Shown: positions 6,091 to 14,088 of the stretch, piece by piece | How positions within the stretch are numbered: position 1 is the first letter of the stretch | How the letters are laid out: every line of letters starts with the position of its first letter | IMG/VR virus record: IMGVR_UViG_3300033571_032600 | Location: 1 to 35,831 of that record | DNA: 35,831 nt | Origin: a virus | Reading direction: 5' to 3' (one strand) | Notes under the pieces: generated by a model | What the model was told of the DNA's origin: nothing | Database searches by the model: none | Seen by the model: only the letters and a program-made list of their open reading frames with translations | Program-made: the position numbers and the translations under genes

Positions 6091-6741
6091 ATGGGCTATA
6101 ATATGGGTATCGGCAAGTTAGCCGAAAGAAATGTTACCTTCAAGAGAAAGTTTAGATGGGTCTTCAGGGTTGAAGGGATCAATGGCAATCCATCTGCCGT
6201 AATTCCAGAACATTATGTCAAAACAACCAAGAGACCAAGCATTGATATGGGTGAATTGAAGGTTTTTCACCTTCATGGTGAAATGCCTATGCCCGGAAAG
6301 CTTGTTTTCAATGATTTCGATGTAACATACTTCGACATTATTGATAACGAGGACTCCATGTTGCAGTTGTACAACTGGATTGGTGGAGTTTATGACTTCC
6401 TGTCTCCAACTGGCACATCTGCCAATCCAAGAGCCGGATCGTTTGCTACAGGTCCGGGTGGCTATTCTGCTACTGCTAAACTCGGCATGCTTGATGGTTG
6501 CGGTAATGGTCTAGAGCAATGGACTATGTACATGTGCTGGCCATCTAAGGCCGATTTTGGCGACCTTGATTACAACTCCTCCGACGAGTGTAATATCAGT
6601 GTTACATGTAAATATCAATTTGCAAAAAGAGTGAACCTTGCAGGCAATCAGCCAAACTTCACCTGTGCAAGCAATCCAAGGGCTACAGCTGGATCTGGCT
6701 TTGCCTTCCCATTCGTTGGCGCTCCCGGTGGTCCTACATAA
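6091..6741 (+). CDS. 19: Tail tube protein, gp19 family
   Basis: 216 residues, preceded by AAAAGGAGA at 6075-6083. It directly follows the sheath gene, as in T4. Family features: K-R-K-F-R-W-V-F-R-V near residues 17-26, K-R-P-S-I near 49, L-H-G-E-M-P-M-P-G-K near 61-70, then L-D-G-C-G-N-G-L-E-Q-W and the conserved final beta strand region I-S-V-T-C-K-Y-Q-F-A. The T4 protein is 163 residues; the extra length is a Gly/Ser/Pro-rich loop (about 108-130) and a Gly-rich tail. It forms the inner tube of the tail. A strong terminator follows 26 nt after the stop, ending the tail transcription unit. Confidence 0.93.
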   Translation: MGYNMGIGKLAERNVTFKRKFRWVFRVEGINGNPSAVIPEHYVKTTKRPSIDMGELKVFHLHGEMPMPGKLVFNDFDVTYFDIIDNEDSMLQLYNWIGGVYDFLSPTGTSANPRAGSFATGPGGYSATAKLGMLDGCGNGLEQWTMYMCWPSKADFGDLDYNSSDECNISVTCKYQFAKRVNLAGNQPNFTCASNPRATAGSGFAFPFVGAPGGPT

Positions 6742-6830: not shown

Positions 6831-7391
6831 ATGGCACAAAACATGGGAATATCTTGGGCGTTCAACAAAGTTTTCAAAAGAAAATTTCGTTGGTTGTTTT
6901 TTATTCCCGGTGTTGTAGATGATGGAATTAAGGCACTGCCTCCACTTTCTGGATCTCGTCCATCTATAAAATTCGAACAAGTAAGTATTCAGCATCTAAC
7001 TGAAACTATATATTTTCCGGGTAGGCCAAGCTATGATCCTATTACATTAAGCTTATATGATGTGCAGACATATAGTCCTGTTTGGGATTGGATTTTATTG
7101 TTGTATGATCCTTACAACGGCACTTATAAGCGATCAACCACACAAGGTGGCTTAGATTACAGCACCTACAAAACTAATTGCTATTTGTCTTTATACGATG
7201 GTTGCGGAGAGGAAATAGAGAGATGGTATTTTGAAGCTGCTTGGTGTGAGAGTGCAAATTTTGGCCCTTTAAACATGAATGAAACAGATTCATGTATGGT
7301 TGATATTACTCTGCGTTTTGATCGTGCATATCGAATGCAGTCACAATCAAGTTTTGACACAGCTACAGTTGGTGGTCCGGGTTCAATCTAA
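6831..7391 (+). CDS. Second tail tube-like protein (gp19 paralogue)
   Basis: 186 residues; GAGG at 6822-6825. It shares the tube layout with the gene at 6091: G-I-S-W-A-F-N-K-V-F-K-R-K-F-R-W at residues 6-21, S-R-P-S-I near 44-48, Y-F-P-G-R-P near 62, L-Y-D-G-C-G-E-E-I-E-R-W near 123-134, and a final M-V-D-I-T-L-R-F strand. It lacks the Gly-rich loop and tail of the first tube. It has its own promoter-like box and follows a terminator, so it is expressed separately. Such paralogues can serve as tube initiator, terminator or tail-fibre adaptor; the sequence does not tell which. Its end overlaps the convergent gene at 7383 by 9 nt. Confidence 0.88.
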   Translation: MAQNMGISWAFNKVFKRKFRWLFFIPGVVDDGIKALPPLSGSRPSIKFEQVSIQHLTETIYFPGRPSYDPITLSLYDVQTYSPVWDWILLLYDPYNGTYKRSTTQGGLDYSTYKTNCYLSLYDGCGEEIERWYFEAAWCESANFGPLNMNETDSCMVDITLRFDRAYRMQSQSSFDTATVGGPGSI

Positions 7392-7692: not shown

Positions 7693-8229
7693 CTATCGTC
7701 TGTCTCCATATTTGTCAAAATTTTTGCTATGTAACTTATCTTTTCTTTTATTCATAGAATCCAATCCTAGTTTTATTTGTATTAAATCGTTGTATCTCTT
7801 TTTGAGTTCTTGATAATTTCTTGCACTTCTCCATAGTTGTCGGAAATGGTTAAGGATACATGTCGTCATATAATTGAAAGCTTTTCCTTTTGCAGGATCA
7901 AACTTTTCTGCTCTTTCAAAGCATATTAAAACACCTTCTTGCACAGCATCATCCTCGTCTATATGGCTAAATTTGGCATATCTTACGATGTTTGAACTTA
8001 GCGTGTAGAATGCGCTTGCAAGTATTTTTTGTGCTTCTGAATACTCTGCTTCTGCCTGTAGTATTTCTTCAGGGTTAACATTCAAAGGATTTTTAAGGTT
8101 CTTTGCTTGTTGTCTTTGAATCCTTGCATCATTTTGTAAAAGCGCCAGTCTTTGCTTTGCTCTTTGGGCTTTTTGATACTTAATTATAATTATCTCAAAT
8201 GATTTGTTGTTTAGATATTCTGTTGACAT
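7693..8229 (-). CDS. 55: Late transcription sigma factor, T4 gp55-like
   Basis: 178 residues; TAAGGAGAATA precedes ATG 8229. Residues about 77-140 are a sigma-70 region 2: L-S-S-N-I-V-R-Y-A-K-F, then D-E-D-D-A-V-Q-E-G-V-L-I-C-F-E-R, then F-D-P-A-K-G-K-A-F-N-Y-M-T-T-C-I-L-N-H-F-R. The 'D-A-V-Q-E-G ... A-F-N-Y-M' pattern is the core-binding and -10-reading part. As with T4 gp55 (185 residues) there is no region 3 or 4, so it would read only the late TATAAATA box. The N-terminal 60 residues are a basic helix. TATAAATA-like boxes in the window (2478, 6800, 11788, 25777, 25814, 29435, 29439) fit this role. The C-terminal tail is basic. Confidence 0.78.
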   Translation of the reverse strand: MSTEYLNNKSFEIIIIKYQKAQRAKQRLALLQNDARIQRQQAKNLKNPLNVNPEEILQAEAEYSEAQKILASAFYTLSSNIVRYAKFSHIDEDDAVQEGVLICFERAEKFDPAKGKAFNYMTTCILNHFRQLWRSARNYQELKKRYNDLIQIKLGLDSMNKRKDKLHSKNFDKYGDRR

Positions 8230-10521: not shown

Positions 10522-11604
10522 ATGAGTGAGGAAATTTTCCGTCCACAAAGACCCAATACAAACAATCCAGCACAACAGCACTTTAATGCTAGTCAGCAGT
10601 TTGAACATCAACCAGAGCATTTGTCACCAACAGCACACCATCCGGGTAACCAACCGGCACATCCCAAAACAAACCCTGATCAAGGTGTGCAAATTACAGG
10701 AAACATCCCTCCACAACTTCTAGAAAGAATGCAAAAAAAGAAGGCTAAAGATAGTGAGGTTCAAGCTGCTCCATCTCTTGGCTCTTTCTCTGCAAATATG
10801 AGTTCAAATCTATTAAGTATTTTGGAAACTCTTAAATCTCAATCGCATCACTTTGAAGAAGTAAAGCTTCCATCTTTAGGTAGGTTTTACGATGGCACAG
10901 ATGGCCCAACCAACGGGATCATTCACATTCGTCCCATGACCGGAGAGGAAGAGCAAATCTTGGCTACACCTAGATTTGTAAAAAAGGGTATTGCTGTAAA
11001 CATGATTTTCAGCAGATGTATACAAGAGCCAATTAAGCCTGAAAATCTCTTGTCTGTTGATAGGACATTTTTACTTATCTATTTGCGTGGCATTTCTTAC
11101 GGAACTGATTACGAAGTTGAAATCAAGGATCCAGAATCTGATCGTAAGTTCACAACAGTTATTGATCTTGATACTTTAGAAATTGAACCATGTCCTAATG
11201 ACTATGGCCCAGAACTTACGGATGTATTGCCAAAATCTGGCCTAACAGTTAATTACAGACTAAGTCGTGGCAGAGACGAGACTGCACTTCAGGAATATCG
11301 TGACAAGAAACTGCGCCAAGCTGGCGATTCTTCTACTGACGACAGTTTGCTTTATAGGACTGCTATGTTGGTTGATGATATTCAGGGAGTTACAGATAAA
11401 AACGAACTGAATGTGCTTTTAAAGAATCTGCCAATTCAGGATGTATCGTATCTTAGAAATCTTGTGACAGAGCCTCCATTTGGCATCGATACGAAAGTTA
11501 CTATTATTTCTCCTATATCTTCTGATGAATTTGAAATCGAACTACCTCTAGAAGCAAATTTTTTCTTCCCACGGGGCAAGAAGAAGGAGAAGACCCAAGC
11601 GTAG
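10522..11604 (+). CDS. gp26-like baseplate hub / tail assembly chaperone protein
   Basis: 360 residues, ATG preceded by TAGGAGATAAG. The N-terminal 90 residues are Gln/Pro/His-rich and disordered. From about residue 113 the pattern E-V-K-L-P-S-L-G-R-F-Y, then I-H-I-R-P-M-T-G-E-E-E-Q-I-L, then a long alpha/beta region matches the T4 gp26 family (T4 base plate protein family). T4 gp26 is 208 residues and is a hub component or assembly factor. Similar proteins in other myoviruses act as tail assembly chaperones. The 3' end carries slippery heptamers followed by an open -1 frame (11565-11780), as tail assembly chaperones do, so a longer product of about 420 residues is probably also made. Confidence 0.7.
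   Translation: MSEEIFRPQRPNTNNPAQQHFNASQQFEHQPEHLSPTAHHPGNQPAHPKTNPDQGVQITGNIPPQLLERMQKKKAKDSEVQAAPSLGSFSANMSSNLLSILETLKSQSHHFEEVKLPSLGRFYDGTDGPTNGIIHIRPMTGEEEQILATPRFVKKGIAVNMIFSRCIQEPIKPENLLSVDRTFLLIYLRGISYGTDYEVEIKDPESDRKFTTVIDLDTLEIEPCPNDYGPELTDVLPKSGLTVNYRLSRGRDETALQEYRDKKLRQAGDSSTDDSLLYRTAMLVDDIQGVTDKNELNVLLKNLPIQDVSYLRNLVTEPPFGIDTKVTIISPISSDEFEIELPLEANFFFPRGKKKEKTQA
11556..11565 (+). promoter_or_regulatory. Slippery sequence for -1 ribosomal frameshift
   Basis: In the gp26-like frame the bases read A-AAT-TTT-TTC. This contains two overlapping canonical X-XXY-YYZ heptamers: A AAT TTT (11556-11562) and T TTT TTC (11559-11565). A small hairpin, CTTCCC with GGGcAAG, follows at once. The -1 frame is closed upstream (TGA at 11532-11534) and open downstream to 11780. 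Confidence 0.6.
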
Positions 11605-11780
11605 CACTATGGAAAAATCTTGCTGAAGAAATGTTCTTTTTTCAGTACCACATGAAAATTCCAAGAAGCCAATGGGTTACCATGCCAATAGGCGAGAGAA
11701 GATTTTTGATGAACAGGTTTGTTGAACAAAAGAATATTGAAAACGAAGAAATGGAAAGACAAAGAACAAACAAAAGTTAA
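11565..11780 (+). CDS. -1 frame extension of the gp26-like protein (tail chaperone T-like domain)
   Basis: After slippage at 11559-11565 the -1 frame gives 71 residues ending at TAA 11780. The body is D-P-S-V-A-L-W-K-N-L-A-E-E-M-F-F-F then helix-rich R-R-F-L-M-N-R-F-V-E-Q-K and a charged tail. Without frameshifting the only start is ATG 11631 (49 residues), which has no proper ribosome site and would drop the well-formed W-K-N-L-A-E-E helix. The layout, a short helical domain with W, F and M anchors in the -1 frame right after a tail gene, is that of the frameshifted partner of tail assembly chaperones (lambda G/GT type). A stand-alone gp51-like small protein is the alternative. Confidence 0.55.
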   Translation, partial: LPTGQEEGEDPSVALWKNLAEEMFFFQYHMKIPRSQWVTMPIGERRFLMNRFVEQKNIENEEMERQRTNKS

Positions 11781-12621: not shown

Positions 12622-14088
12622 ATGACTATTACAGCTGAACGCATGGATTGGTGGTTCAAACGGAACAGCAATGTTTTGTTGCGTGGCCGTCATGGTGTCG
12701 GCAAAACCGCCATGATTCAAGAATGCTTTGAACGAAATGGCTTGATTCTTAATGAAAGCTATATCTATCTTAGTGCATCTACTCTCGATCCTTGGGTTGA
12801 TCTGATTGGTGTGCCCAAGGAACAATCTGATAGCGAGGGTAATAAGTATTTGGGACTTGTTCGTCCTGAATTGCTTTACAAGGGTAACATTCAAGCTATC
12901 TTTTTTGACGAGTACAACCGTAGTCCGAAGGAAGTTCGGAATGCTGTAATGGAGTTGATTCAAAAGAAGTCTATCAACGGTTTTAAATTCCCCAACCTTC
13001 GTATGGTTTGGGCAGCAGTAAATCCTGTTACAGAGGATAACAGCTATGCCGTTGAAGATGATGACAAGGCACAAATTGACCGTTTTAAAGTGCAAGTAGA
13101 TGTGCCTTACGAATGTGATAGGGGGTACTTTGTTAAAACCTATGGCGAGAACCTTGCTTGTGCTGCTCTTGAATGGTGGAACGGTCTGCCAGAGGCTGAA
13201 AAAGACAAGGTTTCACCTCGTCGGCTGGACTATGCTGTTGAAGAGTTTGTTGCTGGTGGTTTCGTTGAAGATATCCTGCCTGCAAGCTCGAATATCAGCA
13301 AGCTTTTAAAAGCTCTTCGTGTTGGTTCTGTGGAACTCAAACTGAAAGAGTTTTATGAAACCAAAGACAAAAAGGCTATCAAAGCATTTTTTGCATCTGA
13401 GAATAATTGCGATCAGTCTTTGAAATACCTTTTGAACAATGATGATTATCTCAAATTTTTCCTACCGTTCTTGAACAAGGAAAAATTGGTTTCCGTTATC
13501 TCGGTTGAAGATAAGGTGCTTAAGCACATTATTGATAACCGGGAAGATGAGCAAGACTATCAGAATATTCTGCAAAATGTGCTTGCTGGTGGAAACTTGG
13601 ATCTAATCAGAAGGATTAGGGCTGCTATTAAGCCGGTTAAGAGATCTGTGTCTATGCATGAACCATTTAATAAAGGAGGAAACGCATCTCCACCGCAAAT
13701 ACATAGTCCTGTCAAAACACGAAAAGATTTAGAAACAACATTTTTCGATGTTATGAAAAATGCGCATGTAACTGATTTCAGCATTATCGACAAAAAAATA
13801 GATAGTTTTGAAAATGTTGTTAAGAATTTACCATCAGATATCACACTAAATGAAGCTGAATCTGTTTTGAGGTTTATTTCTAAGATATGTACAACTTCAA
13901 CTGTTGCAACTATATCATCAGTAGATTTTTACAATCTTATACCTGTTACTAATTTTGCTGTTGACACTATAGCAAAATATAGTAAAACAGATCCAGCAGA
14001 CATTTTTCGTCTGTCTGAATTTTCGGAACTGGCGAAATTGCTCAAGGGCTGGGGCTTATCGTGTGGAGTAATTGGACTTAATACATAG
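12622..14088 (+). CDS. MoxR-type AAA+ ATPase
   Basis: 488 residues; GGAGG at 12609-12613. Walker A is G-R-H-G-V-G-K-T (22-29), Walker B I-F-F-D-E (93-97), sensor 1 A-A-V-N-P (131-135) and an arginine D-R (153-154). This is the order and spacing of MoxR/CbbQ-type ATPases, which remodel or insert cofactors into partner proteins together with VWA proteins. The AAA+ part occupies about the first 300 residues. From about residue 345 to the end the protein is Ser/Thr/Ile-rich with A/T-ending codons and no known domain; an internal AAAGGAGG lies at 13674-13681. This may be a fused or later-acquired tail. The gene is 9 nt upstream of the VWA partner, forming an operon. Confidence 0.88.
   Translation: MTITAERMDWWFKRNSNVLLRGRHGVGKTAMIQECFERNGLILNESYIYLSASTLDPWVDLIGVPKEQSDSEGNKYLGLVRPELLYKGNIQAIFFDEYNRSPKEVRNAVMELIQKKSINGFKFPNLRMVWAAVNPVTEDNSYAVEDDDKAQIDRFKVQVDVPYECDRGYFVKTYGENLACAALEWWNGLPEAEKDKVSPRRLDYAVEEFVAGGFVEDILPASSNISKLLKALRVGSVELKLKEFYETKDKKAIKAFFASENNCDQSLKYLLNNDDYLKFFLPFLNKEKLVSVISVEDKVLKHIIDNREDEQDYQNILQNVLAGGNLDLIRRIRAAIKPVKRSVSMHEPFNKGGNASPPQIHSPVKTRKDLETTFFDVMKNAHVTDFSIIDKKIDSFENVVKNLPSDITLNEAESVLRFISKICTTSTVATISSVDFYNLIPVTNFAVDTIAKYSKTDPADIFRLSEFSELAKLLKGWGLSCGVIGLNT
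14018..14039 (+). promoter_or_regulatory. Second copy of the hairpin element, 58 nt before the VWA gene
   Basis: AATTTTCG and CGAAATT flank GAACTGG inside the moxR-like coding end. Compared with 12542-12562 about 19 of 22 positions agree, and the distance to the next ATG (58 against 59 nt) is conserved. Further similarity runs through GTAATT, CTTAA and GGAGG up to the ATG. Confidence 0.4.

Follow-up and report, generated by a model that had tools for sequence, protein, structure and literature searches.

A gp26-like tail assembly chaperone of an uncultured T4-related phage, very probably made in short and long forms by −1 frameshifting

The DNA analysed here is IMG/VR virus record IMGVR_UViG_3300033571_032600, positions 1 to 35,831, and the whole of this stretch of 35,831 nt is called the window below. 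On its plus strand lies a gp26-like gene (10522-11604), the zero-frame product of which has 360 amino acids and ends in EANFFFPRGKKKEKTQA at the stop codon. Close to the 3′ end of this gene the sequence reads GCA AAT TTT TTC TTC CCA, containing two overlapping slippery heptamers, A AAU UUU at 11556-11562 and U UUU UUC at 11559-11565, both in the phase of the zero frame. These had been pointed out in a preliminary description of the DNA, in which a −1 programmed frameshift was proposed to generate a fusion of the gp26-like protein with a tail-chaperone extension. The limits given there for the −1 frame are matched exactly by ours. The complete open stretch of that frame occupies 11535-11780 on the plus strand, and its eight codons upstream of the slip would presumably go untranslated. 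The part beyond the slip, at 11565-11780, comprises 71 codons and a stop codon at 11778-11780, and would form the C-terminal domain of the long form; the computed product of a −1 shift on U UUU UUC has 348 + 71 = 419 residues. The earliest ATG in the −1 frame is at 11631, preceded by aaaaatcttgctgaagaa, in which no Shine-Dalgarno sequence can be seen, as had also been stated.

The zero-frame protein matches the family PF12322 (T4_baseplate) with E 2.5e-10 and 40.9 bits, against a curated cut-off of 24.5, and phrog_150 with E 1.7e-15. An AlphaFold2 model of the protein, calculated from an input of 44 sequences, was compared with solved structures. The best matches were YqbN (3klu, Z 7.4), the tail assembly chaperone (TAC) of HK97 (2ob9, Z 5.7) and the PICI-like ORF19 (5ir0, Z 5.5), after which the following match drops to Z 3.2. 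They cover mainly residues 231-317 of the model. We take YqbN to be a chaperone of the TAC kind, although the title of its PDB entry makes no such statement. The model is thus supportive of a chaperone-like fold for the gp26-like short form, and tail assembly chaperone is a better name for the protein than the hub label of the preliminary description. The extension is predicted to fold as three helices, with a predicted local distance difference test (pLDDT) score of 87.7. Comparison of its predicted structure with chaperone T domains had been suggested, and here the predicted fold of the extension, searched by itself against the PDB and BFVD, gave no useful match. Searched by sequence, the PDB gave no match to the gp26-like protein, and what it gave for the extension was at chance level. 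Pfam matches of the extension, such as Tma16 and ApaG, were also taken as chance, the sequence being short and charged.

A protein search of IMG/VR gave 80 loci, 79 of which extend to the end of the gene and can be read. The slip site and the −1 extension are both kept throughout. TTT TTC is present at the slip site in all 79 (as U UUU UUC in 77, and as C UUU UUC in loci L012 and L013), and in every one the −1 frame then stays open for about 70 codons, can be aligned, and has a conserved product. There is no stop codon or break of frame between the slip and the extension in any relative. Codon usage was compared across 58 distinct loci aligned by codon. Among the columns of conserved residues, only the three Phe codons of the slip site have a top-codon fraction of at least 0.97 (58/58, 58/58 and 57/58), while seven further conserved Phe columns vary freely, with fractions of 0.55-0.74. 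Part of this fixation, that of the C of the second and third slip codons, also serves reading in the −1 frame. The third T of the first slip codon plays no part in coding once the frame has shifted, yet it too is fixed. The overlapping heptamer A AAU UUU has been lost in at least 12 of the 58 loci, where the preceding codon is GGT, AGT or GCC, so that U UUU UUC is more likely to be the functional heptamer and A AAU UUU is probably accessory or incidental.

Past the zero-frame stop codons the −1 frame has a median ratio of nonsynonymous to synonymous substitution rates (dN/dS) of 0.149 and a pooled pN/pS of 0.275. In the remaining two frames the pooled pN/pS is 1.08 and 1.42. Judged from these alignments, the extension is under purifying selection at the protein level, in the −1 frame only.

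The extension could instead be a separate small gene, translated from an internal start at the ATG at 11631 or by re-initiation after the stop of the gp26-like gene. That ATG is available in the −1 frame, and in some isolates, such as SP-15 and immuto, small open reading frames (ORFs) here are annotated as genes in their own right. However, besides lacking a Shine-Dalgarno sequence the ATG is not conserved, its position being mostly occupied by Ile, Val or Gln in the relatives, and no good downstream start with a ribosome site was found. In several loci the first ATG, GTG or TTG occurs at about codon 31-34 of the extension, inside a conserved helix. Conserved residues begin at the slip itself, before any start, and the first invariant ones lie upstream of the candidate start at 11631. 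A separate gene would moreover leave the fixation of the slip codons unexplained, and we consider it very unlikely.

The frame might also be changed at transcription, if RNA polymerase slipped on the run of T so that some mRNAs lost or gained bases. A run of six T is present in the window, but six is short for polymerase slippage, and L012 and L013 have only five. The retention of the heptamer in zero-frame phase and the fixed C after the run are better fitted by tandem slippage of tRNA-Phe, so that a transcriptional origin is highly improbable. Another possibility is that sequencing error or gene decay has put a single frame break into a continuous gene, which would look alike if seen once in one genome. 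This is contradicted because the break is conserved at the identical codon in 79 of 79 loci, drawn from many assemblies, with selection on both frames, and the chance that it is correct is negligible. A −1 programmed frameshift is thus supported by the conservation of the site, the fixation of its codons, selection on the extension and the want of a conserved start, as the preliminary description had proposed.

Many tailed phages make short and long tail chaperones by frameshifting. We conclude that the locus very probably encodes the TAC of a T4-related contractile-tailed phage, made as a short and long pair of the G/GT type by −1 frameshifting. Most ribosomes would terminate at 11602, giving the short chaperone of 360 residues. 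A minority, with two tRNA-Phe on UUU UUC (11560-11565), would slip by −1 and re-pair on UUU UUU, reading 71 more codons to 11778-11780 to give a long form of 419 residues that ends in a helical domain. If the short and long chaperones gpG and gpGT of lambda (PMC5009743) are a guide, many short and few long copies would assemble around the tape measure protein, tail-tube subunits would be brought in by the C-terminal domain of the long form, and the chaperones would depart before completion of the tail. That ribosomes slip here we infer from the sequence; how often they do so, and that the chaperones bind tape measure and tube, would follow from the lambda analogy.

Both T4 gp26 and T4 gp51 belong to PF12322, and gp51 is longer by about 48 residues at its C-terminus. 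When the extensions were pooled and aligned with the gp51 C-terminal tails using hhalign the score was 25.3, compared with 15.7 for the best of 60 column-shuffled controls, and the extensions of other phages alone matched the tails at 87% (E 3.9e-6). T4 gp51 thus looks like a long form, and gp26 like a short form. A PF12322 zero-frame protein and a gp51-tail-like extension are common to T4 and the window gene, but T4 uses two genes, whereas the window clade has one gene with a −1 slip. The window record has a single PF12322 copy, as has each of 14 relatives (mostly fragments), and the T4 arrangement of two PF12322 genes, one with an extra C-terminal tail, was not seen in any of these records. 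That genes of the gp26/gp51 type are TACs is credited to Vladimirov et al. 2022 (doi 10.1016/j.virol.2021.11.003) in PMC10885494 and PMC12846349, and the hub assembly chaperones in PMC3004832 include gp26 and gp51. Citing the same work, PMC10885494 describes some T4-like phages in which a short chaperone gene is accompanied by a longer, fused one and frameshifting is not used. The preliminary description had suggested that a frameshift at this gene would join the gp26/gp51 and TAC systems. The fold and the likeness to gp51 tails support the link to chaperones; the link itself is already known, and the window locus adds a frameshifted case of a known system.

Some observations weigh against the assignment as a frameshifted TAC. 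A conserved stimulatory RNA structure was not found within the 40-60 nt that follow the slip (mean z 0.14 and −0.55), and the value for the window itself is z 0.36. The structure matches are moderate in Z, and so supportive but no proof alone, though they agree in kind. The extensions of the window clade taken alone match the gp51 tails weakly (E 0.085), so that the pooled profile was needed. Finally, no tape measure gene adjoins the chaperone gene in the window clade, nor could one be recognised anywhere else in the window or along the 19-kb stretches examined.

We note that there is a weak signal of RNA structure at 80 nt, arising largely from a hairpin GAAGAA...TTCTTC that lies about 60 nt past the slip (11623-11650 in the window). 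It recurs in relatives because the extension encodes a conserved E-E-x-F-F-F, and may be only a coding effect.

Both directions of shift were found among isolated phages in GenBank. Atu_ph07, RAS14 and XacN1 carry the extension in the −1 frame, with TTT TTC or TTT TTT at the site, and SP-15, LIS04, vB_SagM-GXN1, Mel-JY01, immuto and LR756508 carry it in the +1 (or −2) frame. A scan of IMG/VR with the immuto gene gave 80 loci, of which 73 were long enough to read. The extension is in the +1 frame in all 73, so this placement is not an error; the site is TTT YTW TGG, and once TTT CTT TAC. The TTT CTA TGG variants are compatible with +1 slippage of tRNA-Phe from UUU to UUC, and not with a −2 slip. 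Extensions of the −1 clade are related to those of the immuto-like loci (profile score 28.5; best shuffle 15.1), and match the mixed +1 set at 97.7%. The chaperones of the immuto and SP-15 type share with the window clade a homologous gene, with a homologous extension at the same Phe codons, but with that extension placed in the +1 (or −2) frame, against the −1 frame of the window clade. The direction of recoding appears to have switched within the chaperone family (loci L115-L194, L083, L084, L086-L088 and L092). No XacN1-like relatives were found in IMG/VR, a search for SP-15-like relatives returned SP-15 itself only, and in Slicko01 the extension was not recognised.

A further lead comes from DUF6760 (PF20546) of bacterial contractile injection systems. 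The curated cut-off of this family is not reached by our sequences: the window extension gave no match, and 8 of 45 relatives matched weakly (best E 0.0034). Compared as a profile, the extension matches DUF6760 at 90.8% with a score of 34.5, the best shuffle scoring 21.4. Eight injection-system loci are readable; they come from few lineages and include three near-identical ones. Each has a gene of chaperone size between tube-like genes, and DUF6760 abuts or overlaps the end of this gene in the −1 frame. In five of the eight the sequence GGGAAAG, which we take to be the slip heptamer of lambda, is present in zero-frame phase. The loci are L103 (1145-1677), L104 (1456-2009, minus strand), L105, L106 and L108-L111. 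DUF6760 resembles the window extension in being small and helical and in overlapping, in the −1 frame, the end of the gene before it. Unlike the window, that gene is not recognised as PF12322, having a weak likeness to Mu gp41 (E 0.068). From its position and frame, DUF6760 may be the frameshifted end of a chaperone and not a separate gene. A literature search found no paper mentioning DUF6760, and among papers on injection systems, frameshifting and chaperones none addressed it in its title or abstract.

Taken together, we think it rather probable that one chaperone family has three routes to a long form at a homologous point (−1 at U UUU UUC, +1 at UUU_Y, and the fused duplicate of T4), with a related two-form chaperone in injection systems having DUF6760 as its frameshifted end, and that selection keeps the pair while the route changes. 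PF12322 (gp26/gp51) proteins, commonly annotated as baseplate hub, would act as a frameshifted short and long chaperone pair in a large clade of uncultured phages, and the two genes of T4 look like an alternative answer to the same need. Because PF12322 proteins would work as such a pair, many records of a "baseplate hub" would hide an unannotated C-terminal domain. The less expected results, likely those of most interest to specialists, are the DUF6760 lead and the change of frame from one sister clade to the other; they make it testable whether selection acts on the ratio of short to long form rather than on the mechanism of recoding.

The gene order differs between these phages. In LIS04 and immuto the chaperone gene is flanked by those of the tail tube and the tape measure, and in SP-15 and Mel-JY01 it lies between the tube and a large gene. 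In the window it is found about 3 kb after the sheath and two tube genes. The latter are tandem tail-tube-like genes (6091-6741 and 6831-7391), both matching phrog_4542, and their order is kept, judged by ORF sizes, in two long relatives. On the minus strand at 7693-8229, and so opposed to the tail module within which it lies, is a gene for a late-type sigma factor (phrog_234 / phrog_351). Shortly downstream of the chaperone gene is an AAA-type ATPase (12622-14088; phrog_1297, E 1.9e-15); in the relative L195 the chaperone is followed by an ORF of similar size (546 amino acids).

Compared with lambda gpG/gpGT and other frameshifted TACs, the predicted fold of the window protein resembles the HK97 and YqbN chaperones. 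Lambda slips on GGGAAAG, whereas the window has UUUUUUC; the protein is of a different sequence family, and the tape measure gene is not adjacent in the window clade. A parallel at the slip site and reading frame, to which the comparison extends, is the TAC of Vandenendeviridae and Pakpunavirus (PMC12846349, which credits poly-T slip sites in TAC-N genes to Vladimirov et al. 2022). In that gene a conserved −1 frameshift is placed at a poly-T site and the −1 frame is uninterrupted, features shared with the window locus, although the motif, GTTTTT, differs from that of the window.
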